Part shown: positions 12,278-26,462 of the stretch, piece by piece
How the letters are laid out: the number at the start of each line of letters is the position of its first letter
Numbering within the stretch: the stretch's first letter is position 1
Origin: Blastococcus aurantiacus
GTDB lineage: Bacteria > Actinomycetota > Actinomycetes > Mycobacteriales > Geodermatophilaceae
DNA length: 64,000 nt
Direction: 5' to 3'
Assembly (NCBI RefSeq): GCF_900102425.1
Contig: NZ_FNBT01000001.1
Span: 620,001-684,000 of the forward strand
The notes under the pieces: generated by a model
The model's input: the letters and a program-made list of their open reading frames with translations, nothing else
The model's database searches: none
Told to the model about the DNA's origin: nothing
Translations under genes and position numbers: made by a program

Positions 12278-12409
12278 GTCCTCTCTTCGGCCGCGACCGG
12301 ACCGGGGTGCAGCGGAGAGCCGGCCCGGAACCGCGGTCCTCATCCGCTGGAGTGACTGCCGGCGGGCCTAGGCTCGGGGCGGACCCGCCCACCGACCCCT
12401 GGAGTTCCC

Positions 12410-12793: not shown

Positions 12794-13990
12794 TCAGCGC
12801 ATCTCCCCCGCCCCGACGTAGGGGAACGGGCTGGTGAGCAGGTGCCCCTCGGCGAACCGGGAGAGCCGGAAGTCCGACTCCGGGACGTCGGGGTCCGAGC
12901 TCTTCCCGTCGACGACGAGGTCGGCCACCAGCCGGCCGACGGCGGGCGAGATCTTGAAGCCGTGGCCGCTGAACCCGGCCGCGACCACCAGCCCCTCGAC
13001 CGGCGTCTCGGAGATGACGGGGTTGAAGTCCGGCGTCACGTCGTAGCAGCCAGCGTAGGTGCCGCTGACCGAGGCGTTCTCCAGCCCCGGGAAGCGGTGC
13101 GCGACCTTCCCGACCGCCATCTCGAGGAAGTCGTCGGTGGCCCGGTTGAGGTAGCGGTCGGGGTCGGCGGGCTCGGGCACCGAGAGGTCGCTGTTGCCGA
13201 ACAGCAGCTGCCCCCCGCCCTCGGCGCGGATGTACTGCAGCGAGACCAGGTCGGAGAAGACCGGGACCGCGCCGAGGTCGGTGCCCGGGTCGAGCAGCAC
13301 GATCGCCTCGCGGTGCACCCGGACGGGCAGGTCGATGCCGAGCGGGGCCAGCAGCGCGACCGACCAGGGGCCGGCCGCCACGACGACGGTGCCCGCCGCG
13401 ACGGTGGCGCCGTCGGCCAGTCGCACGCCGGTCGCCCGGCCGCCGTCGACCAGCACCTCGGTGACCGGCGTCCCCTGCCGGATCTGCACCCCCGCCCGGC
13501 GGGCGACGGCGGCGAAGGCCTGCGCGGTCCGGTAGGCGTCGCCGTAGCCGCCGCGCGGCTCCCAGCCGAAGGCGGCGAAGTCGTCGAGGTCCGCCGCCGG
13601 CCAGAGGCGGGCGACCTCGTCGCGGTCGATCTCCTGCGTCTGCACGCCCAGCGCGCGCTGGTTGGCCAGGCTGGCCCGCAGTGCGTCGACGTTCTCGGGG
13701 CCCACGCCGACGACGTAGCCGGTAGAAGTGAAGCCGACGTCCTCCCCCAGCACGTCGGCGGCGTGCTCGAAGACCTCGAGCCCGGCGTTGGCCATCGCGG
13801 CGAGCGAGGAGACGCCGTAGTGGCAGCGCACCACCCCGCTGGACTTGCCGGTGCCGCCGGAGCCGACGGTGTCCCGCTCGCAGACGAGTACGTCGGTGAC
13901 TCCCCGCTGCGCCAGGGCCCAGGCGGTGGCGGCGCCCTCGAGCCCACCGCCGACGATCACGACGTCCGCGCTGGTGCCCCCCGGCGTCAC
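12794..13990 (-). CDS. FAD-dependent amine oxidoreductase (sarcosine oxidase beta / MgdA-like)
   Basis: A 398-residue DAO-superfamily flavoenzyme. The FAD-binding Rossmann motif VIVGGGLEGAATAWAL lies at residues ~10-25, and the family's C-terminal GFSGHGFKISPAVGRLVADL is present. It resembles sarcosine oxidase beta subunits and the MgdA subunit of N-methylglutamate dehydrogenase. The GTG start overlaps the stop of the FMN glutamate-synthase-like gene by four bases, so it ends a five-gene amine operon. By context it may oxidise N-methylglutamate to glutamate and formaldehyde. The other three subunits of the classical enzyme (MgdB, C, D) are absent here. Oxidation of another secondary amine is the alternative. 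Confidence 0.82.
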   Translation of the reverse strand: MTPGGTSADVVIVGGGLEGAATAWALAQRGVTDVLVCERDTVGSGGTGKSSGVVRCHYGVSSLAAMANAGLEVFEHAADVLGEDVGFTSTGYVVGVGPENVDALRASLANQRALGVQTQEIDRDEVARLWPAADLDDFAAFGWEPRGGYGDAYRTAQAFAAVARRAGVQIRQGTPVTEVLVDGGRATGVRLADGATVAAGTVVVAAGPWSVALLAPLGIDLPVRVHREAIVLLDPGTDLGAVPVFSDLVSLQYIRAEGGGQLLFGNSDLSVPEPADPDRYLNRATDDFLEMAVGKVAHRFPGLENASVSGTYAGCYDVTPDFNPVISETPVEGLVVAAGFSGHGFKISPAVGRLVADLVVDGKSSDPDVPESDFRLSRFAEGHLLTSPFPYVGAGEMR

Positions 13991-15288
13991 AGCGGCTGCC
14001 CCGGGATCCACGACGTGCCGGCCAGCGGCACCCGGGCCATGGCGGCGGCCTCGATGCTGAGTGCGACGAGGTCCTCGGGCTCCAGCGAGTGCAGGTGCGC
14101 CTTGCCGCAGGCGCGGGCGATGACCTGAGCCTCCATGGTCATGACGCGGATGAAGTTGGCCAGCCGCCGGCCGCCGACGACGGGGTCGAGGCGGTCGGCG
14201 AGCTCCGGGTCCTGCGTGGTGATGCCCGCGGGGTCCCGGCCGGCCTGCCAGTCGTCGTAGAAGCCGGCCGCGGAGCCGAGCTTCCGATACTCCTCGTCGA
14301 GGTGCGGCGCGTTGTCGCCGAGCGCGATGAGCGCGGCGGTGCCGATCGCCACGGCGTCGGCACCCAGGGCCATGCACTTGGCGAGGTCGGCACCGTTCCG
14401 GATGCCGCCGGAGACCACCAGCTGCACATGCCGGTGCAGGCCCTCCTCCTGCAGCGCCTGCACGGCCTGGGGCAGCGCGGCCAGCGTCGGGATGCCGACG
14501 TGCTCGATGAACACGTCCTGCGTCGCGGCGGTGCCGCCCTGCATGCCGTCGAGCACGATGACGTCGGCGCCGGCCTTGGCCGCGAGCTTGACGTCGTAGT
14601 AGGTGCGGCTGGCGCCGATCTTGACGTAGACCGGCTTCTCCCAGTCGGTGATCTCGCGCAGCTCGCGGATCTTGATCTCCAGGTCGTCGGGCCCGGTCCA
14701 GTCCGGGTGCCGGCAGGCGCTGCGCTGGTCGACGCCCATCGGCAGGGTTCGCATCCCGGCGACCCGCTCGGTGATCTTCTGGCCGAGCAGCATGCCGCCA
14801 CCGCCGGGCTTGGCGCCCTGGCCGAGGACGATCTCGATGGCGTCGGCCATGCGCAGGTGGTCGGGGTTCATCCCGTAGCGCGACGGCAGGTACTGGTAGA
14901 CGAGGTGCTTGGACTGGCCGCGCTCCTCCGGCGTCATCCCGCCGTCCCCGGTGGTGGTGCTGGTGCCGACCTCGCTGGCGCCGCGGCCGAGGGCCTCTTT
15001 GGCGCGGCCGGACAGCGCGCCGAAGCTCATCCCGGCGATGGTGACCGGGGTGGAGAGGTGCAGCGGGTAGCTGGCGTTGCGGTCCCCGAGGACGACGTCG
15101 GTGTCGCACCGCTCCCGGTACCCCTCGAGCGGGTAGCGGGACATGCTCGCGCCGAGGAAGAGCAGGTCGTCGAAGTGCGGGACGCGGCGCTTGGCCCCGC
15201 CACCGCGGATGTCGTAGATGCCGGTCTCGGCCGCGCGCTGGATGTCGGCGATGGTGGCCCGGTCGAAGGTGGCTGATTCGCGGAGCAT
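13987..15288 (-). CDS. glxD: FMN-binding glutamate synthase family protein (GlxD/MgsC-like)
   Basis: A 433-residue protein equal to the FMN and iron-sulphur-type central domain of glutamate synthase. Family blocks are evident: MSFGALSGRAKEALGRGA, a glycine-rich GQGAKPGGGGMLLGQKI, the phosphate-binding VLDGMQGGTAATQD and VVSGGIRNGADLAKCMALGA. In N-methylglutamate synthase the MgsC subunit has this form and works with MgsA (amidotransferase) and MgsB (GXGXG). Those partners lie directly upstream on the same strand, 13 bases away, so the three genes probably encode one complex. The same set is called glxBCD in rhizobia. Confidence 0.9.
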   Translation of the reverse strand: MLRESATFDRATIADIQRAAETGIYDIRGGGAKRRVPHFDDLLFLGASMSRYPLEGYRERCDTDVVLGDRNASYPLHLSTPVTIAGMSFGALSGRAKEALGRGASEVGTSTTTGDGGMTPEERGQSKHLVYQYLPSRYGMNPDHLRMADAIEIVLGQGAKPGGGGMLLGQKITERVAGMRTLPMGVDQRSACRHPDWTGPDDLEIKIRELREITDWEKPVYVKIGASRTYYDVKLAAKAGADVIVLDGMQGGTAATQDVFIEHVGIPTLAALPQAVQALQEEGLHRHVQLVVSGGIRNGADLAKCMALGADAVAIGTAALIALGDNAPHLDEEYRKLGSAAGFYDDWQAGRDPAGITTQDPELADRLDPVVGGRRLANFIRVMTMEAQVIARACGKAHLHSLEPEDLVALSIEAAAMARVPLAGTSWIPGQPL

Positions 15289-15301
15289 CTGGGTCGTCCC
15301 C

Positions 15302-16036
15302 TCAGTACGCCGAGGCGTTGTCGACGTGGAAGTTGTAGAGCTGGCGGGCCGAGCCGTAGCGGCGGAAGCCGGCCGGGTCGGCGGACATGCCGGCGGCGGC
15401 GAGCAGCTCGGCGAGCTCGGCCAGGTGCTCGGCGCGCATCTCCTTCTCGATGCAGTCGGCGCCCAAGGACTTCACCGAGCCCTGCACGTAGATGCGGGCC
15501 TCGTAGAGGGAGTCACCGAGCGCGTCCCCCGCGTCGCCGCAGACGACGAGCCGGCCGGCCTGGCCCATGAACGCGCTCATGTGCCCGACGTCGCCGCCGA
15601 CGACGATGTCCACACCCTTCATGGAGATGCCGCACCGCGCGGCGGCGGACCCCTCCACGACCAGCAGGCCGCCGTGGGCGGTGGCGCCGGCGGACTGGCT
15701 GGCGTTGCCACGCACGCGCACCGTGCCGCTCATCATGTTCTCGGCCACCCCGACGCCGGCGTTGCCGTGGACGGTCACCGTGGCGCTCTTGTTCATGCCG
15801 GCGCAGTAGTAGCCGACGTGGCCGTCGATCTCGACCGACACCTCGGCGTCCAGGCCGACGGCGATGCTGTGCCGCCCGTCGGGGTGGGTGACCCGCCACG
15901 ATGGCACTTTCTCCGCCACGTCGGGCGCGTGCAGCGCGGCGTTCAGCTGCCGGACGTCGGAGACCGAGAGGTCGACCACCGCCTCGGTCGTGCTGTTGGG
16001 CTCGTGCACGTCCAGGGGCGTGCTCAGCGCTGCCAT
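15302..16036 (-). CDS. glxC: Glutamate synthase GXGXG-domain protein (GlxC/MgsB-like)
   Basis: A 244-residue right-handed beta-helix protein equal to the C-terminal domain of the glutamate synthase large subunit. Repeating turns are readable: VTVHGNAGVGVAENMMSGTV, VRGNASQSAGATAHGGLLV, VVGGDVGHMSAFMGQAGRLVV and GDAGDALGDSLYEARIYV. It has no active site of its own and probably forms the wall of an ammonia channel between partner subunits. A GAGGAGG site sits six bases before the ATG. It overlaps the end of the amidotransferase gene by 13 bases. Confidence 0.9.
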   Translation of the reverse strand: MAALSTPLDVHEPNSTTEAVVDLSVSDVRQLNAALHAPDVAEKVPSWRVTHPDGRHSIAVGLDAEVSVEIDGHVGYYCAGMNKSATVTVHGNAGVGVAENMMSGTVRVRGNASQSAGATAHGGLLVVEGSAAARCGISMKGVDIVVGGDVGHMSAFMGQAGRLVVCGDAGDALGDSLYEARIYVQGSVKSLGADCIEKEMRAEHLAELAELLAAAGMSADPAGFRRYGSARQLYNFHVDNASAY

Positions 16037-16917
16037 GCGTAGACCTCCTCCGGCTCGGGTTCGAAGATGCGGGCGTGCTCGACGCCGGGCAGGCCGGCGA
16101 GGGCGCGGTACTCGGACGCCATCGCGACCCACTCCGGGGTCTCGGCGACGACGGCGGGCTTGCAGGCGATGGCATCGCGGACGATCGCGAAGCTGTCCTT
16201 GGTGGAGACGAGCAGCGTGTAGAAGCCGTCGAACCGCTCGCAGAGGAGCTTCAGCGACTTCTCCAGGTCGTAGCCGGCGGCCAGCTGCGCGGCGACGAAG
16301 CGGGCGCCGACCTCGGAGTCGTTGTCGGAGTCGAAGACGGCGCCGCCGGCGACCAGCTCGCGGCGGATGGTGGCGTGGTTGGCGAAGGAGCCGTTGTGCA
16401 CGAGGCACTGGTCGGTGCCGACGGAGAACGGGTGGCAGTGCGCCGGGGTGACGGCCGACTCGGTGGCCATCCGGGTGTGGGCGACCCCCTGCCAGCCCTG
16501 CGCCTGCGCCAGGTCGAACTCGGCGGCCAGCAACTGCGGGTGGCCGACGCCCTTGAGGACGGCGACCTCCTCGCCCGAGCCGATGACGAGCAGGTCGGGC
16601 AGCGCGGTGCGGACGGCGGCGACGAGGGTGTCGACGTCGACCGGCGCGTGCACGACCAGCGTCTGACCGGCGTCGACGACCGCGACCCCGGGGACGGCGG
16701 CACGAAGCGCCGTCGCCACCTCGTCCGGCGTCGTCGTCCCCGGGAGCAGGGAGACCGAGGCGTGCCCGGGCGGTGACCATCGGGGGTCGCCGTAGACGGC
16801 GACGCCGGCGGAGTCGGGGCCGCGCTCGGTGACCTGGCAGAGCATCCCGGTCAGCAGCTCGCCGAGCCGGGGGTACAGGGAGGGCTCCCGCAGGTGGAGC
16901 CCGACGATCCCGCACAT
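16024..16917 (-). CDS. glxB: Class II glutamine amidotransferase (GlxB/MgsA-like)
   Basis: A 297-residue Ntn-type amidotransferase. The catalytic Cys2 is exposed when the initiator Met of MCGIVGLHL is removed, and the glutamine-site blocks TERGPDSAGVAVYG, GVAHTRMATES and VHNGSFANHATIRREL are intact. It should release ammonia, or in the MgsA role handle gamma-glutamylmethylamide, for the neighbouring GXGXG and FMN subunits. AAGGAA precedes the ATG by about seven bases. Being a separate subunit rather than part of a fused glutamate synthase marks it as the GlxB/MgsA type. Confidence 0.9.
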   Translation of the reverse strand: MCGIVGLHLREPSLYPRLGELLTGMLCQVTERGPDSAGVAVYGDPRWSPPGHASVSLLPGTTTPDEVATALRAAVPGVAVVDAGQTLVVHAPVDVDTLVAAVRTALPDLLVIGSGEEVAVLKGVGHPQLLAAEFDLAQAQGWQGVAHTRMATESAVTPAHCHPFSVGTDQCLVHNGSFANHATIRRELVAGGAVFDSDNDSEVGARFVAAQLAAGYDLEKSLKLLCERFDGFYTLLVSTKDSFAIVRDAIACKPAVVAETPEWVAMASEYRALAGLPGVEHARIFEPEPEEVYAWQR

Positions 16918-16952
16918 GGGTGGTTCCTTTCTCGGTCGGTCTTCTCGGCGGG

Positions 16953-18347
16953 TCAGAAGGCGGTCACGTAGCGGTCGACCTCCCAGCTGGAGACCTGGCC
17001 GTGCCACTCGAAGAACTCGTCGCGCTTGAGGCCGGCGAAGTAGCTGCTGACGCCGGCGCCGGCGGCGTCGAGCGCGCCGGTGACGACCGGGTCGGCCTCC
17101 AGCTGCTCGACGGCGTGCAGGAGGGTCGGCGGCAGCGGGTCGCTGCGGTTGGCGCCGGGGTCGCCCGGGTCGAGGTTGCGGCGGATGCCGTCCAGGCCGG
17201 CGGCGAGCGCGGCGGCCGCCGCGAGGTAGGGGTTGGCCGAGCCGTCGCCGCCGCGCAGCTCGACGCGGTTGCCGTCGGGGACGCGCAGCAGGTGGGTGCG
17301 GTCGTTGCCGCCGTAGGTCGCCTGCCGCGGGGACCAGGTGGCGCCCGAGCGGGTCGAGGTGGCGCCGGTGCGCTTGTAGGAGTTGACCGTGGGCGCGAGC
17401 ACGGCCTGCATCCCGCACGCGTGGTCGAGCAGCCCCGCGACGAAGGAGTAGGCCAGGGGGCTCAGCCCGAGGCCGCGGGCGTCGTCGGCGTCCGGGAAGG
17501 CCGGCGCGCCGTCGCGCCACAGCGAGAGGTGCATGTGCAGGCCGCTGCCGGTGCGGTCGGTGAACGGCTTGGGCATGAAGGTCGCGGTCATGCCGCGCTC
17601 CTCGGCCATGACCGAGAGCAGGTACCGGAGGGTGACGACGCGGTCGGCGGTGGTCAGCGCGTCGGCGTAGGCGAAGTTCTGCTCGAACTGGCCGTTGCCG
17701 TCCTCGTGGTCGTTGGCGTAGTTGCCCCAGCCCAGGGAGTTGATCGCCTTGGAGACGGCGGTCAGGTGCTCGTACATGCGGGTCAGGCCGCGGGCGTCGT
17801 AGCAGGGGCGCTCGGCGGTGTCCTTGGCGTCAGCGGGCCGCAGTGCGCCGTCGGGGGCGCGCTCGACGAGGAAGTACTCGACCTCGGCGCCCACCTTGAG
17901 CTCGAGGCCGAGCTCGGCGGCTCTCGCGAGCTGCTCGCGGAGGATGACGCGCGGGGCGTAGGGCCACGGCGTTCCCTCGACGTGCGGGTCGCAGTGCACG
18001 ATCGCCAGCCCCGGCCGGAGGAAGGGCACCGGCATGTAGGACGACGGGTCGGGGATGGCGATGAGGTCGGGGTCCTTCGGCTCCTGGCCCATGGCGCCGA
18101 CGGCGTAGCCGGCGAAGCCGACCCCGTCGGTCTGCAGCTCCTCGACGGCCTCGATCGGGACGAGCTTGGCGCACGGCTTGCCGGTCAGGTCGACGAACAG
18201 GGCGAGGATGAACTCGATGCCGTCGGCGCGGGCCTTCGTCACCAGGTCGGGCGTGGGCTGGCCTTCGACATCGAGCGCTGCACGGCCGGGGGTGGGCACC
18301 TGTTCGGGGACCGGCGGGGCGTCGGGACGGGCGGCGGTGAGCGACAC
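16953..18347 (-). CDS. glnT: Type III glutamine synthetase-like ligase (GlnT / gamma-glutamylmethylamide synthetase candidate)
   Basis: A 464-residue glutamine-synthetase-fold ATP-dependent ligase that joins ammonia or an amine to the gamma-carboxyl of glutamate. Visible family blocks include VGAEVEYFLV (metal-binding glutamates), NDHEDGNGQFEQNF, GSGLHMHLSLW, NSYKRTG and RVELRGGDGSANPYLAAAAALAA. GmaS enzymes of the methylamine route belong to this subgroup, and the downstream mgsABC-like genes favour that role over bulk ammonia assimilation. It starts at GTG with GGAGG upstream and a palindromic site 20 bases away. Substrate choice between ammonia and methylamine cannot be proved from sequence. 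Confidence 0.88.
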   Translation of the reverse strand: MSLTAARPDAPPVPEQVPTPGRAALDVEGQPTPDLVTKARADGIEFILALFVDLTGKPCAKLVPIEAVEELQTDGVGFAGYAVGAMGQEPKDPDLIAIPDPSSYMPVPFLRPGLAIVHCDPHVEGTPWPYAPRVILREQLARAAELGLELKVGAEVEYFLVERAPDGALRPADAKDTAERPCYDARGLTRMYEHLTAVSKAINSLGWGNYANDHEDGNGQFEQNFAYADALTTADRVVTLRYLLSVMAEERGMTATFMPKPFTDRTGSGLHMHLSLWRDGAPAFPDADDARGLGLSPLAYSFVAGLLDHACGMQAVLAPTVNSYKRTGATSTRSGATWSPRQATYGGNDRTHLLRVPDGNRVELRGGDGSANPYLAAAAALAAGLDGIRRNLDPGDPGANRSDPLPPTLLHAVEQLEADPVVTGALDAAGAGVSSYFAGLKRDEFFEWHGQVSSWEVDRYVTAF

Positions 18348-18366
18348 GGGGACCTCCGGAGTAGCT

Positions 18367-18382
18367 GTTCACTGTCGTGAAC
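18367..18382. promoter_or_regulatory. Inverted repeat upstream of the glnT/gmaS-like operon
   Basis: A perfect palindrome, GTTCAC-TGTC-GTGAAC, lies 20 bases before the GTG start of the operon. A related one, GTCCAC-N5-GTGGAC, lies before the dimethylamine monooxygenase operon at 24144. The shared pattern suggests a common regulator, perhaps the XRE-cupin protein encoded at 24259. Confidence 0.5.
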
Positions 18383-18582
18383 CTCTGTCGCATGTGAGTA
18401 GACGGGGCTCCGGTTTCGCCGGCGTTACCGCGGCGCTGAGTTCGTGTTGCCGCGAGTCCCGCGGGGCCGCCCCGTCGCTGCTCGCCGGCGGGCCGGCCGT
18501 CGACAGCCGGGCCGGCGCGCTCCTGCTACCGACGGGCCGCTGACCTGCGGAAGCTGTCGTACCCCCCAGCTAGTTTCGAGGC

Positions 18583-20178
18583 ATGTCCGACGGAGGCTCC
18601 TACGGCGTCACGGTCACGGCCGCCCCGGTCGTGGCCCTGCCGTTCGCCGTGGAGATGCCCCCGCCGGATCTCGACGGACGCCCCGTTCCCCTGGGTCGTC
18701 TGATGCCGGCCGCCCGCCGCACACCGCAGGAGAAGGCCCGGGAACTCGAGCGGGTCGTCGAGGTGGAGGCCCGACTGGCCGCCTACAAGGCCGAGCTGGT
18801 CGTCTCCCTGGCTCGCGACCGAGGCCGCCACGACGATCCGCGTCCAGGCACTGTTGGCGCCCCCTCGCCGCGGTGGGCGCGTGAGGAGGTCGACGAGCCG
18901 CTGCCCGAGGTGAGCGAGTTCTTCGCCGACGAGCTGGCGCTGGTCCTCAACTGCTCGCGCACCGGCGCGACGGTGCTCGCCGAACACGCGCACACGCTGG
19001 TCGAGCGGCTGCCCTCCACCTGGGCCGCGCTCGCCGACGGCGCGCTCGACTGTCCCCGCGCACGGGCCTTCGCCGCGGAGCTCGGCTGGCCGGCCCGGAA
19101 CACCGACCCCGAGGTGGTCGCGGAGGTGGAAACCGCGGCGCTCTCGCGGGCCGCGGAGCTCTCGGTGACGAAGCTGCGGGCGTTCCTCCGCCGCGAGCTG
19201 ATCAGCCGCGACGCGTCCGCAGCCGAGCGGCGCCGCAAGCGGGCCGAGCGCTCCGCCGACGTCACGGTGCACTCAGCCGAGGACGGCATGGCCGAGCTGC
19301 GCGCGTTCCTGCCGGCCCCCGAGGCGGCGGCCGTGCACGCCGCCGTCGACGCCCTGGCCCGCGAGGCCAAGCTCGCCGGTGACGTGCGCCCGATCGGGAT
19401 GCTGCGCGCCGCCTTCCTCACCGACGCCGTGCTCCGGCCCGGGGACAGCGGCGAGTCGACGGTCAGCGCGCACGTCACTGTGATCGCGCCGCTGCCCACG
19501 CTCGGCGGGCCGAGCTGCGACCACCCGGCGGAGGTCCTGCCGCGGGGCGCCCGTCCCGCACCGGTAGAGCCCGGCGAGGTGGACGGGCACCCCATCACCG
19601 CCGGCCAGCTCCGCGACCTGCTGACCCAGCTCGACTCGCTCTGCCCGGGCGGCCTGCAGGCGCCGACCGGCGGGAGCCTCGGCATCGCCCTCACCGATCC
19701 CGCGACCGGAGCCCTGCGCGCCACCGTCAGCCGCGCCGAGCTCGAGCGGCTCGTCCGCCGCGGGTGCCCTACCCACCCCGACGGCGATTGCGGGTGCCCG
19801 GTCCTCGACCGCCCCGCGCCGGTCGACCGGTACCGCCACTCCCCCGCCCAGGAACGCTTCACCCGGACCCGCGACCGGACCTGTCGCCAACCCGGCTGCA
19901 CCGGCCGCGCAGCCTGGACAGATCTCGACCACGTCGTCCCGCACGACGACGGCGGACCCACCGACTGCGGCAACCTCTGCTGCCTGTGCCGCCGGCACCA
20001 CCGTCTGAAGACCCACGCCCGCGGCTGGCGCTACGCGATGACCACGGACGGCGTGCTCTCGGTGACCACTCCCAGCGGAGTCACCCGGATGACCCGCCCA
20101 CCCGGCTGGCGGGCGCACGCGGACGAGCTGGCACACCGGGTTGCCACACCGACGCTCGACGACTCGCCCCCGTTCTGA
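18583..20178 (+). CDS. DUF222 / HNH endonuclease domain protein (13E12 repeat family)
   Basis: A 531-residue member of the actinobacterial 13E12 family. The N-terminal ~350 residues carry the helical DUF222 region (ARLAAYKAELVVSLARDRG; SVTKLRAFLRREL). The C-terminus holds an intact HNH nuclease: CRQPGCTGRAAWTDLDHVVPHDDGG followed by CLCRRHHRLKTH, with zinc-site cysteines and the catalytic His in DHVVPH. These genes are often multicopy and mobile-like, but their role is unproven. It lies between the two halves of the methylated-amine block on the opposite strand, suggesting later insertion. Confidence 0.88.
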   Translation: MSDGGSYGVTVTAAPVVALPFAVEMPPPDLDGRPVPLGRLMPAARRTPQEKARELERVVEVEARLAAYKAELVVSLARDRGRHDDPRPGTVGAPSPRWAREEVDEPLPEVSEFFADELALVLNCSRTGATVLAEHAHTLVERLPSTWAALADGALDCPRARAFAAELGWPARNTDPEVVAEVETAALSRAAELSVTKLRAFLRRELISRDASAAERRRKRAERSADVTVHSAEDGMAELRAFLPAPEAAAVHAAVDALAREAKLAGDVRPIGMLRAAFLTDAVLRPGDSGESTVSAHVTVIAPLPTLGGPSCDHPAEVLPRGARPAPVEPGEVDGHPITAGQLRDLLTQLDSLCPGGLQAPTGGSLGIALTDPATGALRATVSRAELERLVRRGCPTHPDGDCGCPVLDRPAPVDRYRHSPAQERFTRTRDRTCRQPGCTGRAAWTDLDHVVPHDDGGPTDCGNLCCLCRRHHRLKTHARGWRYAMTTDGVLSVTTPSGVTRMTRPPGWRAHADELAHRVATPTLDDSPPF

Positions 20179-20260
20179 TGGCTGTGCCCTGTCCTCCCAG
20201 GTCGCCAACGCTGTCATGCCTCAGGTATCACGTGCCGACGGCGCGGTTAGGGTGCGTGGC

Positions 20261-20872
20261 GTGGTCGCGAAGTCAGCCACCGAGGTGAAGGCGGAACTCG
20301 AGCGGAGAAAGCGCGAGGACCCTGCCTACCGCGCCGAACTGGAGCGCGTGGAATCAGAACGCGCTGAGCGCGCACGGCTCAACAGGATTGCTGAGCAACC
20401 CGTCGTAGCGGACCTCAAGGCCCTCGGTCTCGACCTGGATTCCGTCTGGGACCTGTACAAGATTCCGGACTCGCGTCCGCAGGCCATACCGGTCCTTCTC
20501 CGGCACCTTGCACTCGACTACCCGGAACGGGTCCTTGAAGGCATCGGCCAGGGACTCGACCACCCCTCGGCTCGCGCATGGTGGGGTGACCTCCGCGACA
20601 TGATGCTCGACACCGAAAGAGACGTCGTACGGGATCGACTGTCAGCGGCGCTGAGCAACTGCGCGACCCGTGGGCACTACGAGGAGCTGCTGGGCTTCAT
20701 CCGGGATGACGGCCTCGGCCAGTGCCGCATCTACTTCTTGCGTCCGATCAACAGGATCGGCAATCGGATCGAGGCTGGACAGGGCCGAGCAGTCATCGAA
20801 TCTGTCGCAGCCGACCCCGTCCTCGCCAACGAGGCGACCGCGATACTCAAGGGTCGTAGCCGGAGTCAGTAG
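20261..20872 (+). CDS. Hypothetical helical protein, compositionally distinct
   Basis: A 203-residue soluble protein with no family I recognise. The N-terminal ~40 residues are a charged helix (KAELERRKREDPAYRAELER). The rest is helical with HEAT-like character (QAIPVLLRHLALDYPERVLEGIG; ARAWWGDLRDMMLD). Codon use is less GC-biased than in neighbouring genes, with AGA, AGG and GTA codons present, which hints at transfer. I chose the GTG at 20261; an in-frame ATG at 20216 is possible. It follows the HNH gene on the same strand and may have arrived with it. Confidence 0.65.
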   Translation: MVAKSATEVKAELERRKREDPAYRAELERVESERAERARLNRIAEQPVVADLKALGLDLDSVWDLYKIPDSRPQAIPVLLRHLALDYPERVLEGIGQGLDHPSARAWWGDLRDMMLDTERDVVRDRLSAALSNCATRGHYEELLGFIRDDGLGQCRIYFLRPINRIGNRIEAGQGRAVIESVAADPVLANEATAILKGRSRSQ

Positions 20873-21058
20873 ATGGCCGGCTACAGCCGCGATGAGGGCG
20901 CCACCCCTGGCACGCAACGGCGCACCGTGCCGCGGCCGTCCCCAGTCAGCCTCCCCGTTCCAGGCCCGCAGATCATCCCGCGACCGCTGCCCGGCAATGT
21001 GGCTCGCGACTGAGTCAGCCCGCCCGGAGGATGGCGACATGGACCCGGGGAGAGCTGC

Positions 21059-21289
21059 ATGACGCTTCTGTGGGTGGGCGGGTTCGCCGTTGCGCTGGGC
21101 ACGGGGTTGCTCCTCTTCCGCCGCCCGCTGACCGCATGGAACGCGCGTGGAGCCGACGCCATGCGGAGCAGGCACAAAACTCAGGTCAGCGACCCGAACG
21201 ACGGCTACCCCCGCTACATCGTGGGCGTCGGCGCACTCATCCTCGGAGTCGGTGTCGTCCTGGTGGTCCTCGGCACCCTCCGGCTCTGA
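21059..21289 (+). CDS. Small two-helix membrane protein
   Basis: A 76-residue protein with a hydrophobic helix at residues ~3-20 (LLWVGGFAVALGTGLLLF) and a second at ~54-74 (IVGVGALILGVGVVLVVLGTL), joined by a hydrophilic segment. Both ends are probably on the same side of the membrane. No conserved motif is recognised. GGGGAGAGCTGC precedes the ATG. It is convergent with the dimethylamine monooxygenase heme-subunit gene, 24 bases away. Confidence 0.65.
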   Translation: MTLLWVGGFAVALGTGLLLFRRPLTAWNARGADAMRSRHKTQVSDPNDGYPRYIVGVGALILGVGVVLVVLGTLRL

Positions 21290-21313
21290 GCAGGCCTCCC
21301 CACAGGCGAACGG

Positions 21314-22285
21314 TCAGCGCGAGGTCAGCCAGTCGACAGCGGCTCCGCGGAAGCGGGTCAGGCCCTTGTAGTCCGCCATGTCATCGGGCAGTTCGGCGAG
21401 GACGGCGGCGAAGCGCTGCCGCCACTCCGGCACGGTGGCCAGCTCGCGCAGCGACAGCACGTGCGTGCGCACCAGGAAGCAGACGGCGTTCGAGACGCCG
21501 AGCCGGATCAGGTGCTGCACCTCGACCCGCAGGTGCAGCCGGTCGGGCAGTGCCGGATCGTCGACCACCAGCCGCCGGTCGCGGCCCCAGTCGGCGTAGG
21601 TCTCGGTGGAGGTGTCCAACCGCCGGTCGACGGTCATCGTCCAGTTGGTCCGCCGGTACTCCTCCCCCGGCTGCAGCCGCATGAGGAACTGCTCGGCCCG
21701 CTGCACCACCCCCGCCTCGTGCACCCGCGGCACCGGGCCGTGCACCTCCAGGAACCGCATCCCGACGTCGAAGCCCATCGACCAGTCGGCCGCGAAGGTC
21801 ACCAGCCCGGCGTCGGCCCACAGCGCGCCCTCGCGCTGGTCGAGCAGCACCACGTCGTCCTGGATCTGGCTGCCCAGGAACGCCAGCGGCCCCTCCGGCA
21901 GCGAGTCGTCGTCGCCGACGGTGAACGTGCGCGCGGTGCCGAGCCGGTCGTTGCGCCACGTCCAGCGGTCGCCGACCCGGTCCAGCGACGTCGTACCCGG
22001 CAAGGTGTCGGCCAGCTCGGGCAGCAGCGTGGTCAGCGCGTCCCACGAGGCCACCCGCATGTGCGGCAGCTCCTGGCAGCGGGTCGGGTCCGCGGCAAGG
22101 ACGGCGCGGCGCTCCGCCAGCTCCGCGGCGTAGTCGTCGTCCACGTCGAGCACGCCGGCCCCCCAGCCGCCGGCCGCCGTCGTGACCGGCCGGCGCGCGG
22201 GCTCGACGTTGGTCGAGTACCGGTAGCTGTCCGTCGCGAACGGGAACGGGAAGCGGGCAACCCGGGAAGAGAGTGCAGTGGTCAC
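21314..22285 (-). CDS. dmmC: Heme-dependent oxidative N-demethylase (dimethylamine monooxygenase, DmmC-like)
   Basis: A 323-residue DUF3445 protein. This family is the heme-binding, PAS-derived catalytic subunit of oxidative N-demethylase / dimethylamine monooxygenase, which turns dimethylamine into methylamine and formaldehyde with O2 and electrons. The assignment rests on full-length resemblance, with blocks such as FAADWSMGFDVGMRFLEVHGPVP, FLMRLQPGEEYRRTNW and the C-terminal CFLVRTHVLSLRELATVPEW. The GTG start overlaps the dmmB stop by four bases. It is the last gene of a four-gene operon. Confidence 0.88.
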   Translation of the reverse strand: MTTALSSRVARFPFPFATDSYRYSTNVEPARRPVTTAAGGWGAGVLDVDDDYAAELAERRAVLAADPTRCQELPHMRVASWDALTTLLPELADTLPGTTSLDRVGDRWTWRNDRLGTARTFTVGDDDSLPEGPLAFLGSQIQDDVVLLDQREGALWADAGLVTFAADWSMGFDVGMRFLEVHGPVPRVHEAGVVQRAEQFLMRLQPGEEYRRTNWTMTVDRRLDTSTETYADWGRDRRLVVDDPALPDRLHLRVEVQHLIRLGVSNAVCFLVRTHVLSLRELATVPEWRQRFAAVLAELPDDMADYKGLTRFRGAAVDWLTSR

Positions 22286-23253
22286 AGGTCCAGCTCCAGC
22301 TCGTCGTCGACGCTGCGGGAGACGCAGCACATGACCGCGTCGCCGGCGGCGCGCTCGGCCTCGGACAGGTACAGGTCGCGGTGCAGCGGCCGCCCGCTGC
22401 GCACCGGCACGCGGCACTCCCCGCACACGCCCTGCCGGCACAGGTTCGGCACCGCCACCCCCGCCTCCTCCAGCGCGCTGAGCAGGCTGGTGCCCGACGG
22501 CACCGGCACCCGCGTGCCGGAGCGCGCCAGCCGGGCGGTGAACGGCTCGCCCGGGTCGAGGTCGGCCGCCGAGAACCGCTCCGCGTGCACCCGCTCCGCC
22601 GGCCAGCCCAGCTCCGCGGCGGTCTCCTCGACGAAGGCGATCAACGGCGCCGGGCCGCACACGTACACGTGGGTGCCCAGCGGCCGGTCGGCCAGCGCCG
22701 CCCGCACCGCTGCCAGCATTTCCGGCGTCGACCCGTAGGCGGCCAGCCGGTCGCCGCACAGGTCCCGGAGTTCGTCCAGGTGGGCGCCGGCACCCGGTCG
22801 GTGCCCGTAGAGCAGCTCGAACGAGCGCTTCCAGCGCACCGCGGCGCGCGCATGCGACAGCATCGGCGTGATCCCGATACCCCCCGCGACCAGCAGGTGG
22901 TGCCGCGCCGTCGACACCGGGGCGAACGCGCTCCGCGGCCGGGAGGCGGTGACGACGTCGCCCACCGCCAGGCGGTGCACGAACGCCGAGCCGCCGTCCC
23001 CGTCGGGGCACAGCAGCACCGACACCCGGTACTCCTCGGCCGGCGAGCCGTCGCCGGTCAGCGAGTAGGCGTTGCGCCGGTCCCCGCAGTCCATGACGAG
23101 GTGGCTGCCCGCCGGGTAGGCGGGGAGCGGTCCGCCCTCGGACCGGCGGAGGGTCAGCGTCCGGATCCCGGGGACGTCGTCGGCCACCGCGGCCACCGCG
23201 AGCACGAGGACGCCGGTGCGTGCGGCAGTCCGCGCCGGGAGGGTGGCGGTCAC
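22282..23253 (-). CDS. dmmB: Flavin / 2Fe-2S oxidoreductase (dimethylamine monooxygenase reductase, DmmB-like)
   Basis: A 323-residue PDR/VanB-type reductase that should pass NAD(P)H electrons to the heme subunit. The flavin domain shows RNAYSLTGDGSP, and the nucleotide domain shows LLVAGGIGITPMLSHARA and YVCGPAPLIAFV. A C-terminal plant-type ferredoxin has cysteines in CRQGVCGECR and the last ligand in the CC of AVMCCVS. The GTG at 23253 overlaps the dmmA stop, and its own stop overlaps dmmC, so all three are coupled. The longer upstream frame is not homologous. Confidence 0.9.
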   Translation of the reverse strand: MTATLPARTAARTGVLVLAVAAVADDVPGIRTLTLRRSEGGPLPAYPAGSHLVMDCGDRRNAYSLTGDGSPAEEYRVSVLLCPDGDGGSAFVHRLAVGDVVTASRPRSAFAPVSTARHHLLVAGGIGITPMLSHARAAVRWKRSFELLYGHRPGAGAHLDELRDLCGDRLAAYGSTPEMLAAVRAALADRPLGTHVYVCGPAPLIAFVEETAAELGWPAERVHAERFSAADLDPGEPFTARLARSGTRVPVPSGTSLLSALEEAGVAVPNLCRQGVCGECRVPVRSGRPLHRDLYLSEAERAAGDAVMCCVSRSVDDELELDL

Positions 23254-23762
23254 GCGACCTCCTCGGCGTCGGCCATGAAGCCCAGGTACGCACCCGCTCG
23301 GCGCGAGACGTGGGCGTAGACGTGCAGCCGGCGACCGCACCCGTCGCACGGGGTCTCCCCCGCCACGGGCGCCGTCGTCGCCGTCGTGGTGCGGCAGTGC
23401 GGGCAGTACACCCGCTTGCGCTCGGTGCTGGTCACCGCGCAGCGGATCTCCGCGTCCAGCACCCCCGCCCGCAGCGCGACGGCGCGGGCGGCCAGCACGT
23501 CGGCCTCCGGACCGGCCAGCATCAGCCGCCAGCCCACGCGGGCCCCGGCGATCCGGGCGGTCAGGACGGCGAGCACGGCCTCGTCGGCGTCGTCCGCGGC
23601 CAGCACCTCGACCGCGCGGCCGGCCGGGACGTCGGCGGCCCAGGCGGTGGTGATTGCGCAGCCCCGCGCGCCGAAGCCGACCAGCAGCAGTGCGCGGGCC
23701 GATGGGTCCGGCGCCGGCCGCTCGGTGCCCCAGCGCGGCACGCTGGTGTGCTCTGCGCCCAC
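23250..23762 (-). CDS. dmmA: Dimethylamine monooxygenase small subunit (DmmA family), zinc-ribbon end
   Basis: A 170-residue protein of the DmmA family. The first ~115 residues form an alpha/beta domain (LLLVGFGARGCAITTAW). The C-terminus has a zinc-ribbon pattern, CPHC followed by CDGCGRRL, then the family ending HVYAHVSRRAGAYLGF. In characterised systems this subunit is needed for the monooxygenase complex; its exact role is unclear. It starts at GTG five bases after the cupin gene and overlaps dmmB. Confidence 0.85.
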   Translation of the reverse strand: MGAEHTSVPRWGTERPAPDPSARALLLVGFGARGCAITTAWAADVPAGRAVEVLAADDADEAVLAVLTARIAGARVGWRLMLAGPEADVLAARAVALRAGVLDAEIRCAVTSTERKRVYCPHCRTTTATTAPVAGETPCDGCGRRLHVYAHVSRRAGAYLGFMADAEEVA

Positions 23763-23767
23763 GGCGG

Positions 23768-24127
23768 TCAGGGCGCGAACGAGCGGTGGCCGGTGTAGAA
23801 ACCCAGCGCCCGGTCCGGCGTCTCGAACCGGATCCGCGAGCCCTTCGGGAAGAACAGCACGTCCTTCGGGCCGGCGACGACCTGCTGGCCGCTGTCGAGG
23901 TCGGTCAGGTGGAACTCGCCCTCGACGACGACCTTCATCTCGTCGTACGTGTACTCGTAGTCCAGCGGAGCGCCGGCGAACAACTCGAAGAAGCCGCTGC
24001 AGATCTCGGCTCCGCCGGGGTTGGCGAGGGCGTCACCGATGTAGGCGCGGGTGCCCGGGTCCGCCATCCGCGGCAGGTTGCGGAAGGCTCCGCTCACGTG
24101 TCCGATACGGGTCGCGCTGGTGGTCAT
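23768..24127 (-). CDS. Cupin protein of the dimethylamine monooxygenase operon
   Basis: A 119-residue single-domain cupin resembling EutQ-type proteins: YTYDEMKVVVEGEFHLTD forms the first cupin motif and PKDVLFFPKGSRIRFETPD the second. The typical metal-binding histidines of the first motif appear replaced by Tyr/Asp/Lys, so it may not bind iron in the usual way. It is the first gene of the dmm operon, preceded by a palindrome at 24144 and a CGGAG site. It could be a fourth subunit or an assembly or sensing protein; the sequence does not decide. Confidence 0.8.
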   Translation of the reverse strand: MTTSATRIGHVSGAFRNLPRMADPGTRAYIGDALANPGGAEICSGFFELFAGAPLDYEYTYDEMKVVVEGEFHLTDLDSGQQVVAGPKDVLFFPKGSRIRFETPDRALGFYTGHRSFAP

Positions 24128-24143
24128 GTCCGCTCCGGAGGTC

Positions 24144-24160
24144 GTCCACTGGTGGTGGAC
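24144..24160. promoter_or_regulatory. Inverted repeat upstream of the dmm operon
   Basis: GTCCAC-TGGTG-GTGGAC lies 17 bases from the cupin start, in the divergent region shared with the XRE-cupin regulator gene. It resembles the palindrome at 18367 before the glnT-like operon, with a five-base rather than four-base spacer. An operator role is inferred. Confidence 0.45.
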
Positions 24161-24258
24161 AGACGGTATGGAGGGTGGACCCCCGGACGGGTTACCCGGC
24201 AGTTACGTTCTCGCGGCATCGCCGTTCGGGACCCTTCACCGCACCTAAGCTGGGCCGC

Positions 24259-24879
24259 GTGGAGGCTCTGCCGGTGCCCGAGGGCACCCCCCGGGAGGAG
24301 ACCCCGAGCGGTCATCTCGAGGACGTCATCGCCATGCGGGTCCGCGAGCTGCGGCTGGCCAAGGGCATCTCGCTGGCCGAGCTGGCGCGGCTGACCGGCA
24401 TGAGCAAGGCGATGCTGTCGAAGATCGAGAACGCGCAGACCTCGTGCAGCCTGTCCAGCCTCGCCCGGCTCGCCGAGGCGCTCGCCGTCCCGGTCACCGC
24501 GCTCTTCCGCGGTCTGGACGCCGAGCGCGAGGCCGTGCACACGCCGGCCGGTCACGGCGCCCAGATCGCCCGTCGCGGCAGCAACGTCGGCCACCTCTAC
24601 CAGCTGCTGGGCGCGCTCCGCGGTGAGCACAAGCGCCTCGAGCCGCTCCTGGTGACGCTCACGGAGGCCAGCGAGGTCTTCCCGCTGTTCCAGCACCCGG
24701 GCACCGAGTTCCTCTACATGCTCGACGGCGTGATGGTCTACGGCCACGGGCAGGCGCGCTACGAGATGCACCCGGGCGACTCCCTGGTCTTCGACGGGGA
24801 GGGCCCGCACGGCCCGGCCGAGCTGGTCGAGCTGCCGATCCGCTTCCTCGCCGTCACCGCCTACGGCCACGTGGCCTGA
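24259..24879 (+). CDS. XRE-family regulator with C-terminal cupin
   Basis: A 206-residue regulator. A helix-turn-helix lies at residues ~25-75 (RELRLAKGISLAELARLTGMSKAMLSKIENAQTSCSLSSLARLAEAL), with a short linker and a cupin sensor domain at ~125-200 (VFPLFQHPGTEFLYMLDGVMVY; MHPGDSLVFDGEGPHGPAEL). Such proteins often control amine and amino-acid catabolism by binding a small molecule in the cupin. It is divergent from the dmm operon and is the best candidate to control it. The GTG at 24259 has no clear ribosome site and may be leaderless. Confidence 0.88.
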   Translation: MEALPVPEGTPREETPSGHLEDVIAMRVRELRLAKGISLAELARLTGMSKAMLSKIENAQTSCSLSSLARLAEALAVPVTALFRGLDAEREAVHTPAGHGAQIARRGSNVGHLYQLLGALRGEHKRLEPLLVTLTEASEVFPLFQHPGTEFLYMLDGVMVYGHGQARYEMHPGDSLVFDGEGPHGPAELVELPIRFLAVTAYGHVA

Positions 24880-24914
24880 CGCGCAGCACCGCACGACAGC
24901 CCTTCCACGACACA

Positions 24915-24942
24915 GGGGCCGGCACCTCGCGGTGCCGGCCCC
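24915..24942. terminator. Bidirectional terminator hairpin
   Basis: A perfect 12-bp stem, GGGGCCGGCACC and its complement with a TCGC loop, sits between the convergent XRE-cupin and amt genes. It should end transcription from both sides. Confidence 0.75.
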
Positions 24943-24960
24943 CACGTCGTCGCGGGTGGA

Positions 24961-26310
24961 TCAGGTCGTCGGCCGGCCCTCGGCGGCGGACGACGCCACC
25001 AGCCGCTCGGCCGAGGCGATGACCGCCTGCGGCGTCGGCGAGGTGCCCGGCGTGTGCACCGTGCCCTCGAGGTCGTAGGCGACCTCCGCGTGCTGGTCGA
25101 GGTCGACGCCCGTGGACTCCGACTCCGGCGTCAGCCGCAGGCCCATCGTCTTGTGCACCGCGAGGGCGATGAGCAGCGAGACGACGAACCCGTACCCGAC
25201 AACGGCGGCCGTGGCCGTCGCCTGCACGCCGAGCAGCTCCAGGCCACCGCCGTAGAACAGGCCGTCCCGGCCGCTGGGCGCCTCGGCGGACCCGAGGAAC
25301 CCGACAAGCAGGGTGCCGACGACGCCGCCGACCAGGTGGACGCCGACGACGTCGAGCGAGTCGTCGTAGCCGAAGCGGTACTTCAGCGCGATGGCCAGCG
25401 GGCAGACGACGCCGGCGACGGCGCCCACCGCGAGCGCACCGAGCGGGGTCACCGCGCCGCACGCCGGGGTGATGGCGACCAGGCCGGCGATGGCGCCGGA
25501 CATCCCGCCCAGCGTGGTGGCGTGCCCGTCGCGCAGCTTCTCGACGACCAGCCACGCGAGGATCGCGGCGCAGGTGGCGTTGAAGGTGTTGAGCATGACG
25601 ACCGAGGCGCTGTTGCCCGCGGCCAGCGCGGAGCCGCCGTTGAAGCCGAACCACCCGAACCAGAGGATGCCGGCGCCCAGGGCGACCAGCGGGAGGTTGT
25701 TGGGGCGGGCCTGCCGCGGCCAGCCGGTCCGCTTGCCGACGACGAGGACCAGGGCGAGCGCGCCGATGCCGGCGTTGATGTGCACCGCGGTGCCACCGGC
25801 GAAGTCGACGGCGGCCAGCTTGTTGGCGATCCAGCCACCGGAGACGCTGCCGTCGGCGGAGTCGAACGCGAAGACCCAGTGGGCGACCGGGAAGTAGACC
25901 AGCGCCGCCCACAGCCCCGCGAACACCAGCCACGGGCCGAAGCGCACCCGGTCGGAGACGGCTCCGGCGATCAGCGCGGTGGTGATCACCGCGAACAGCG
26001 CCTGGAACACCGCCACCAGCGCCGGTGGGAGCGCCGCCTCCTCGTCCCCGGCGACCAGCGACCCGAGGCCGGCGTACTCGGTGAGGTTGCCGAGCAGCCC
26101 CACTCCGCCGTAGGAGTCGCCGAAGACGGCGGAGAAACCGAAGAGGGTCCACAGCACGCCCACGACCGCGACGGCGCCGAACACCATCATGATCATGTTG
26201 AGGATGCCGCGGGAGGAGACCATGCCGCCGTAGAACAGCGCCAGGCCAGGGATCATGAGCGCGACGGCCATCGTCGCCGCGAGGATGAATGCAGTGCTGC
26301 CGACGTCCAC
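24961..26310 (-). CDS. amt: Ammonium transporter (Amt family)
   Basis: A 449-residue inner-membrane channel with about eleven helices. Amt hallmarks are visible: LFYGGMVSSRG near residue 27, GGTAVHINAGIGALALVL with the first pore histidine, WFGWFGFNGGSAL, and VVGVHLVGGVVGTLLVG with the second. A ~45-residue polar tail is cytoplasmic. The GTG at 26310 has GAAGGG upstream. No glnK or glnD follows, unlike many actinobacterial amt operons. Next to the dimethylamine and glutamate-ligase genes it suggests nitrogen scavenging; it could also admit methylammonium. Confidence 0.93.
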   Translation of the reverse strand: MDVGSTAFILAATMAVALMIPGLALFYGGMVSSRGILNMIMMVFGAVAVVGVLWTLFGFSAVFGDSYGGVGLLGNLTEYAGLGSLVAGDEEAALPPALVAVFQALFAVITTALIAGAVSDRVRFGPWLVFAGLWAALVYFPVAHWVFAFDSADGSVSGGWIANKLAAVDFAGGTAVHINAGIGALALVLVVGKRTGWPRQARPNNLPLVALGAGILWFGWFGFNGGSALAAGNSASVVMLNTFNATCAAILAWLVVEKLRDGHATTLGGMSGAIAGLVAITPACGAVTPLGALAVGAVAGVVCPLAIALKYRFGYDDSLDVVGVHLVGGVVGTLLVGFLGSAEAPSGRDGLFYGGGLELLGVQATATAAVVGYGFVVSLLIALAVHKTMGLRLTPESESTGVDLDQHAEVAYDLEGTVHTPGTSPTPQAVIASAERLVASSAAEGRPTT

Positions 26311-26462
26311 GGGAGCCCTTCGTCTACTGAGAGTGGTCGCTGTCCTGCGGGAGTAGACGGTTCCTCTGTTGCCCCGGCTGTCCATCCACGTGACGTTCAG
26401 GTGACATCGGTGTCCGCCCGGCGCGTCCGCGGCGCCAGGGCGCCCGTGCAACTCTCGGTCCC

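Follow-up and report, generated by a model that had tools for sequence, protein, structure and literature searches.

A predicted single-chain FAD dehydrogenase beside mgsC in a proposed actinobacterial variant of the N-methylglutamate pathway

The N-methylglutamate pathway has so far been described around a folate-linked four-subunit dehydrogenase, MgdABCD, and the question raised here is whether a single flavin adenine dinucleotide (FAD) chain could stand in its place. The locus lies in a stretch of 64,000 nucleotides from Blastococcus aurantiacus (the window), on contig 9 of a 4.16-Mb genome that is 97% complete. A preliminary description of this DNA had reported dmmABC with a cupin gene, an XRE-cupin regulator, amt, a ligase, three glutamate-synthase-like subunits and an FAD gene, and all of them were located in that order (Table 1). 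Read from its sequence, the block probably encodes the N-methylglutamate pathway in a modified form, with a single-chain FAD enzyme, encoded beside mgsC, in place of the tetrahydrofolate (THF)-linked MgdABCD. In the proposed route, DmmABC would convert dimethylamine into methylamine and formaldehyde, GmaS would join methylamine and glutamate with ATP, MgsABC would transfer the methylamino group to 2-oxoglutarate, forming N-methylglutamate, and the FAD enzyme would oxidise the N-methyl group, the resulting imine breaking into glutamate and formaldehyde. The electrons would probably pass to a protein and not to O2, the candidates being electron-transfer flavoprotein (ETF) and an iron-sulfur reductase. 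The formaldehyde freed at both demethylations would be caught by mycothiol and an S-(hydroxymethyl)mycothiol dehydrogenase that, by homology, is encoded elsewhere in the genome, and GlnR would probably turn expression on in nitrogen starvation.

The FAD protein had been taken for the one surviving subunit of the MgdA/SoxB kind, an identification that has to be given up. Against the soxB model the protein scores 144 bits (cut-off 529), and the His that links flavin mononucleotide (FMN) in SoxB (His173 position) is Ala in all 16 rows of a residue table that belong to the window's kind, called type 1; six further rows, type 2, resemble monomeric sarcosine oxidase (MSOX). Type 1 forms one clade in the FAD tree (support 97/95), and by these sequence measures the protein is not a SoxB/MgdA subunit and belongs to a clade of its own. 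An AlphaFold model of it has a predicted local distance difference test score of 88.7 and a predicted template modelling score of 0.90, and R55 and K346 occupy the carboxylate-binding positions of sarcosine oxidase. The O2-activating Lys265 and the covalent Cys315 of MSOX are Leu and Gly in 16/16 type-1 rows and present in 6/6 type-2 rows; since this Lys is missing, the earlier alternative of "dehydrogenase or oxidase" leans to dehydrogenase. The nearest non-actinobacterial relatives in the plasmid collection come from Burkholderiales and are 37-38% identical, with the same residue pattern. In the tree, type 1 joins this ETF type at 66/48 and a grouping with SoxB is not rejected (p-AU, from the approximately unbiased test, 0.415), so that kinship to the ETF type is argued from 38% identity and the residues. 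Six haloarchaeal plasmid records (H53-H58) also encode FAD proteins, 32-37% identical to the window's.

When the genome, 97% complete, was searched for the rest of MgdABCD, as the preliminary description had proposed, neither SoxG nor a full soxA was found, and no soxB passed the cut-off (SoxD was not searched), in line with that description's suggestion of a single chain in place of four subunits. Across 249 genomes from Mycobacteriales, the order to which the window belongs, the same SoxG model gave matches in 49. The FAD gene, counted at E <= 1e-100, occurs in 17 of the 249 genomes and mgsC in 22, all 17 lying inside the 22 (hypergeometric 3e-22, kinship ignored). Twelve of the 17 have neither SoxG nor a full soxA, and in another (G160) a weak SoxG match lies within an 820-residue frame, again with no full soxA. 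Coordinates place the FAD gene beside mgsC in 15 of the 17; the other two, G100 and G109, have it away from the mgs genes (on another contig; at 108 kb) and directly after dmmA-dmmB, and no dmmC match was found in the 20-kb stretches around it (L143, L144), the FAD gene sitting where dmmC would be. The remaining five mgsC genomes have a different single-chain FAD gene, next to mgsC in four and next but one in G093, whose type-2 products are 26-31% identical to the window's protein and carry MSOX-like Arg, Lys and Cys residues. A single-chain enzyme thus accompanies mgsC in 22/22 genomes, 17 with type 1 and five with the MSOX-like kind. A Streptomyces plasmid likewise has a type-2-like FAD gene by mgsC, followed by an S-(hydroxymethyl)mycothiol dehydrogenase gene.

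Conservation was counted in loci found by a collection scan with the FAD protein alone, of which the best 80 of 269 relatives were kept. Genera represented include Mycobacterium/Mycolicibacterium, Gordonia, Pseudonocardia, Actinomycetospora, Amycolatopsis, Streptomyces, Frankia and Blastococcus, and the closest named locus is that of Blastococcus sp. TF02-09, with shared pathway proteins 93-98% identical. As gmaS, mgsA, mgsB, mgsC and the FAD gene are all matched in 75 of the 80 loci, and mgsC is present in 17/17 FAD genomes, the linkage is beyond chance and the five-gene core is a conserved actinobacterial unit. The direct coupling of the FAD gene to mgsC that had been remarked on is borne out by a four-base overlap (GTGA) between the FAD start and the mgsC stop in the window, and by adjacency on the same strand in 73 of the 78 loci holding both genes; in the exceptions they lie 1.9-2.2 kb apart (L012-L014), on opposite strands (L015) or 152 bases apart (L040). 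In two loci (L011, L044) mgsC was not found within the stretch examined. Relatives of the XRE-cupin gene occur in 73 loci, of amt in 53 and of dmmC in 15.

Some of the surroundings deserve mention in their own right. A plasmid of Candidatus Mycobacterium methanotrophicum (L151) carries gmaS-mgsABC-FAD with transposase genes near, from which the five-gene unit may be mobile. Plasmid pLVM1 of Methylobacterium sp. DM1 (L149) has dmmABC-mgsABC-gmaS, with genes for an aldehyde-activating protein and a globin behind gmaS and no dehydrogenase in the 19-kb stretch, and a plasmid of Acinetobacter sp. PK01 (L153) has dmm-amt-XRE-gmaS-mgsABC and, after mgsC, a transposase-like open reading frame (by eye), and neither FAD nor sox was matched in its stretch. 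An apparent MgsC-FAD fusion (P0110) was set aside as evidence of contact, the MgsC part changing reading frame before the FAD part, which looks like a frameshift or assembly artefact. The conserved genes that flank the mycobacterial loci (by eye leuA-like, aspartate kinase, aspartate-semialdehyde dehydrogenase and DnaQ-like) were judged to be housekeeping surroundings and not part of the pathway.

The ligase finds its best PDB matches in Rhodovulum GmaS (RhGmaS; 7cql, 401 bits) and in 9qur, deposited as a glutamate-methylamine ligase (361 bits). Among the 17 functional residues of RhGmaS named in the GmaS structure paper (PMC7948447), it shares 16, including A48 and W300 (here A79 and W338). 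These two occupy the positions of the ammonia-site Asp and the flap Glu of glutamine synthetase, and the genome's own type I glutamine synthetase, serving as control, has D and E there. The type III ligase can be called GmaS-like, as the preliminary description had it, and a preference for methylamine over ammonia is predicted. The phylogeny against GmaS and GlnT that had been proposed does set an actinobacterial group (86/91) apart from the proteobacterial and two PDB proteins (90/78), but it does not separate specificities. Because the "GlnT" of Rhizobium etli, encoded in an mgs (glx) operon with glxBCD and soxBDAG-2, groups with RhGmaS and has all 17 residues, the tree alone settles no specificity.

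The three separate glutamate-synthase-like subunits correspond by family to MgsABC: an amidotransferase that begins MCGIVG, its Cys being presumably the N-terminal Cys of class II amidotransferases, a GXGXG protein and a protein with the FMN-binding glutamate synthase domain. The first iron-sulfur Cys of glutamate synthase is replaced by Asp in 7/7 MgsC proteins. Plasmid copies of MgsC from Rhizobium, Methylobacterium, Acinetobacter, Cupriavidus and Streptomyces share about 79-86% identity with the window's protein (the best 40 of 447 records). GmaS and MGS have also been likened to the glutamine synthetase/glutamate synthase pair (PMC10781810).

The nitrogen-scavenging role suggested earlier gains support from regulation. 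The exact motif GTNACN6GNAAC, which we take to be the GlnR box, occurs twice in the 64 kb, before gmaS and before the cupin-dmm operon (Table 1). Because this count alone is not significant (at least two in 8 of 60 random sequences), the GlnR argument draws on position and on the 80 loci; window sites with at most one mismatch number 27 against 26.85 expected. In 350-nt windows upstream of gene starts estimated from tblastn, this motif precedes amt in 16/53 loci and gmaS in 4/71 (0.0135 expected per 350 nt). By gene order and annotation, the block can be equated with msmeg_6259-6264 of M. smegmatis, which, according to PMC4222082, encode an ammonium transporter (amt1), glnT, an amidotransferase, FwdC-FmdC, a glutamate synthase and a putative oxidoreductase. 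The same study gives ratios of wild type over glnR mutant in nitrogen starvation of 11.7, 16.1, 10.4, 7.4, 7.0 and 5.1 fold, with GlnR bound upstream of amt1 (PMC4222082), and work with a nitrogen-limited chemostat gives expression ratios of 2.07-2.73 for four of these genes (PMC4617892). From the predicted sites, GlnR probably switches on the block in nitrogen starvation.

As to the fate of the methyl groups, the DmmA family, the reductase and the haem subunit were found within one operon, and earlier work has described both the activity of DmmABC and what DmmD does (PMC5520151). DmmD was not found in the own genome, where the only match to Cupriavidus DmmD (34%) is the glycine-cleavage protein GcvT (401 bits, cut-off 300). 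Since neither SoxG nor full SoxA nor DmmD was found there, neither demethylation appears to be tied to THF in this genome; likewise, with neither DmmD nor the SoxA-like, GcvT-bearing MgdC found, both steps would set formaldehyde free. Of the 22 block genomes, 21 have an S-(hydroxymethyl)mycothiol dehydrogenase that passes the cut-off, the own copy lying on contig 14. The expectation that formaldehyde is released with no dedicated genes nearby describes the window's copy correctly, but in two relatives this dehydrogenase gene comes directly behind the FAD gene, at about 60-70 bases in G238 and about 125 bases in Blastococcus MG754426, where it is cut by the contig end. The pairing is rare (1/17 genomes, 1/80 loci) and spans two different families.

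A link to N-formylglutamate deformylase (PF05013) was considered and rejected for the actinobacterial block: the family is found in 3 of 30 genomes (G000, G058 and G276), in G000 on another contig near a hisH-like gene (by eye), and G000 and G058 are near relatives. The G000 gene (contig 11, 2308-2922) is unlinked to the block; the family occurs in the two same-genus genomes with the block and was not found in four other same-genus genomes tested. On plasmids of Cupriavidus, P. sprentiae and Aquabacterium (L155-L157, L159), the FAD gene beside gmaS-mgsABC is accompanied by hutG, which encodes N-formylglutamate deformylase, and by HutD. This suggests that oxidation of N-methylglutamate might in these cases yield N-formylglutamate, whose cleavage to formate would avoid formaldehyde.

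The acceptor was approached through the Burkholderiales relatives, for which 5 of 11 plasmid records were examined (Cupriavidus, P. sprentiae, Aquabacterium, P. phymatum and P. largidicola). The FAD gene is near gmaS-mgsABC in three of the five, with ETF genes in two of these three: Cupriavidus and P. sprentiae have ETF beta/alpha and ETF-ubiquinone oxidoreductase (ETF-QO) with the FAD gene, adjoining gmaS-mgsABC, and the Aquabacterium record has HutD and no ETF with the FAD gene. Because ETF genes stand with these relatives, ETF would be a likely acceptor by analogy. DmmB, an iron-sulfur reductase, is another candidate and may serve the FAD enzyme in G100 and G109, given their dmmA-dmmB-FAD order without dmmC.

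Several observations weigh against the reading of the block as an N-methylglutamate pathway with a single-chain dehydrogenase. The strongest is the failure of M. smegmatis to grow when 10 mM methylamine was its only source of nitrogen (PMC4222082). In the ligase pocket the one differing residue is Q175, here A211, a position that is Ala in 21/21 actinobacterial ligases and Gln in 7/7 proteobacterial ones and both PDB proteins. Four of the 17 FAD genomes (G100, G148, G239 and G265) do have SoxG and a full or split soxA. The THF-free state is not general, because the Actinomycetospora locus L044 has purU near the FAD gene, and two Streptomyces loci (L029, L057) have, near dmm, a gene with a GcvT domain (32-33% to DmmD). 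The ETF route is further burdened by the gene order in G100 and G109, by the 80 loci, where Cupriavidus ETF chains as queries (E <= 1e-15) gave no match (ETF alpha/beta were not searched genome-wide), and by ETF-QO (PF05187), found in 0/22 genomes against 3/14 controls; a different ETF oxidase, EtfD, is possibly used in Actinobacteria. Finally, P. phymatum and P. largidicola (L158, L160) have FAD-ETF-hutG without mgs in the stretch, for which reason the wider FAD family may act on other N-methyl amino acids. In L160 the FAD-ETF-hutG genes stand beside putA and ABC transporter genes, hinting at a substrate such as N-methylproline.

Of the alternatives, one that we regard as rather unlikely retains the logic of the pathway but lets it act on a wider or another set of small primary amines, such as ethylamine or ethanolamine, the FAD enzyme dealkylating the corresponding N-alkylglutamate. 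The conserved Ala at Q175 would suit it, as would the GlnR-dependent growth of M. smegmatis on ethanolamine reported in that study alongside the failure on methylamine (PMC4222082); yet M. smegmatis may use other ethanolamine routes, and a one-carbon product is indicated both by dmmABC in the window (dmmC in 15/80 loci) and by the mycothiol dehydrogenase gene that two relatives have behind the FAD gene. We think it unlikely that the block serves high-affinity ammonia assimilation, the ligase making glutamine, the synthase subunits glutamate, and the FAD enzyme being unrelated. Database records do label the ligase glnT, amt adjoins here and has relatives in 53/80 loci, and the GlnR-type boxes, together with GlnR control and the lack of methylamine growth in M. 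smegmatis, would fit as well; however, at the two positions with which glutamine synthetase binds and deprotonates ammonia the ligase has the residues of GmaS and the own type I enzyme those of glutamine synthetase, dmmABC shares the block, with dmmC near in 15/80 loci, and the FAD gene follows mgsC in 73/78 loci. A closed redox loop, in which the FAD enzyme would return the two electrons of N-methylglutamate to the FMN of MgsC with no outside donor or acceptor, is improbable, although it would account for the Asp at the first iron-sulfur Cys of MgsC, the lack of a GltD-like partner in the block, the overlap or abutment of the FAD gene with mgsC, an FAD chain without the O2-activating Lys, and ETF-QO in 0/22 genomes. 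It is very improbable that the FAD protein belongs to an ordinary complex of the MgdABCD/sarcosine-oxidase type with partners encoded elsewhere in the genome, given Ala at the FMN-linking position in 16/16 type-1 rows and no SoxG or full soxA in 12/17 FAD genomes or in the own genome, which also has no soxB over the cut-off.

The genes described as one neighbourhood do all lie within 12794-26310, but they form two operons, divided by a DUF222 gene and a small open reading frame on the plus strand (18583-20872). A relative of the DUF222 gene occurs in 1/80 loci, that of Blastococcus TF02-09. Each dmm gene overlaps the next by four bases, and the XRE-cupin gene is placed between amt and the cupin gene on the opposite strand. 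Elsewhere in the window, a family 26 glycoside-hydrolase-like protein is encoded downstream of the block (11111-12343) and a class II ribonucleotide reductase (48066-50948) lies in the 4-kb stretch of lowest G+C.

Table 1. Features of the block, with positions in the window and supporting matches
Feature	Position	Strand	Support
Single-chain FAD dehydrogenase (type 1), predicted N-methylglutamate demethylase	12794..13990	-	DAO domain 224 bits
mgsC-like FMN glutamate-synthase subunit	13987..15288	-	Glu_synthase 309.6 bits
mgsB-like GXGXG subunit	15302..16036	-	PF01493
mgsA-like class II glutamine amidotransferase	16024..16917	-	GATase_6 / GATase_7; N-terminus MCGIVG
gmaS, putative gamma-glutamylmethylamide synthetase (type III ligase)	16953..18347	-	TIGR03105 610 bits, cut-off 469.6
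GlnR-box-like site, about 65 nt upstream of gmaS	18413..18428	-	exact GTNACN6GNAAC
DUF222/HNH-type gene, outside pathway	18583..20178	+	PF02720
dmmC, haem-dependent oxidative N-demethylase alpha subunit	21314..22285	-	PF11927 200.6 bits
dmmB, reductase with 2Fe-2S domain	22282..23253	-	PF22290, PF00111, PF00175
dmmA	23250..23762	-	NF041259 116.7 bits, cut-off 60
EutQ-like cupin	23768..24127	-	PF06249
GlnR-box-like site, about 64 nt upstream of cupin-dmm operon	24191..24206	-	exact match
XRE-cupin regulator	~24259..24879	+	HTH_3, Cupin_2; start uncertain, 24175 also possible
amt ammonium/methylammonium transporter	24961..26310	-	TIGR00836 411.5 bits, cut-off 343.3
Weak GlnR-box-like site upstream of amt	26390..26405		one mismatch; alone not above chance

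If the proposed pathway is correct, the 22 mgs-bearing genomes sampled would run it with single-chain flavoenzymes from two separate clades, the one-carbon unit probably passing to mycothiol as formaldehyde. It would also give a function to the GlnR-controlled M. smegmatis operon, whose oxidoreductase is listed only as "putative", and would mean that surveys based on mgdABCD overlook such organisms; a one-gene N-methyl amino acid dehydrogenase would then be available for enzyme work. In the literature searched, neither a report of a single-chain N-methylglutamate dehydrogenase nor an assay of any enzyme from this FAD clade was found.

Set against known systems, the block agrees with the N-methylglutamate pathway of Proteobacteria (GmaS, MgsABC, MgdABCD) in GmaS and MgsABC, which are alike by family and residues, with MgsC about 79-84% identical to the listed proteobacterial copies. 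It departs from that pathway in its dehydrogenase: one FAD chain takes the place of MgdABCD, and the own genome gave no match for a component that binds THF. The same holds for glxBCD-glnT with soxBDAG-2 in Rhizobium etli and for soxBDAG-purU-folD-mgsABC-glnT in Sphingobium, where the ligase and synthase genes are alike and the dehydrogenase is of the four-subunit Sox/Mgd type, accompanied by folate genes. In Mycobacterium sp. 141 and 155, McTaggart et al. (2015; PMC5023230) described Gma-MgsABC, with ligase and synthase genes alike and a cupin "EutQ" likewise noted, and placed MgdA-D in a distant cluster; FAD, searched for as a whole word, gave no match in the text of that paper. MSOX has the Lys265 and Cys315 that are absent from the window's FAD enzyme and that the type-2 enzymes of other genomes keep. 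A parallel in the dehydrogenase is offered by Burkholderiales, where gmaS-mgsABC stands with FAD-ETF-HutD-ETF-QO and hutG: the FAD enzyme is again a single chain, 37-38% identical and with the same catalytic residues, but ETF and ETF-QO (in Cupriavidus and P. sprentiae) and N-formylglutamate deformylase are encoded alongside it, none of which stands in the window's block.

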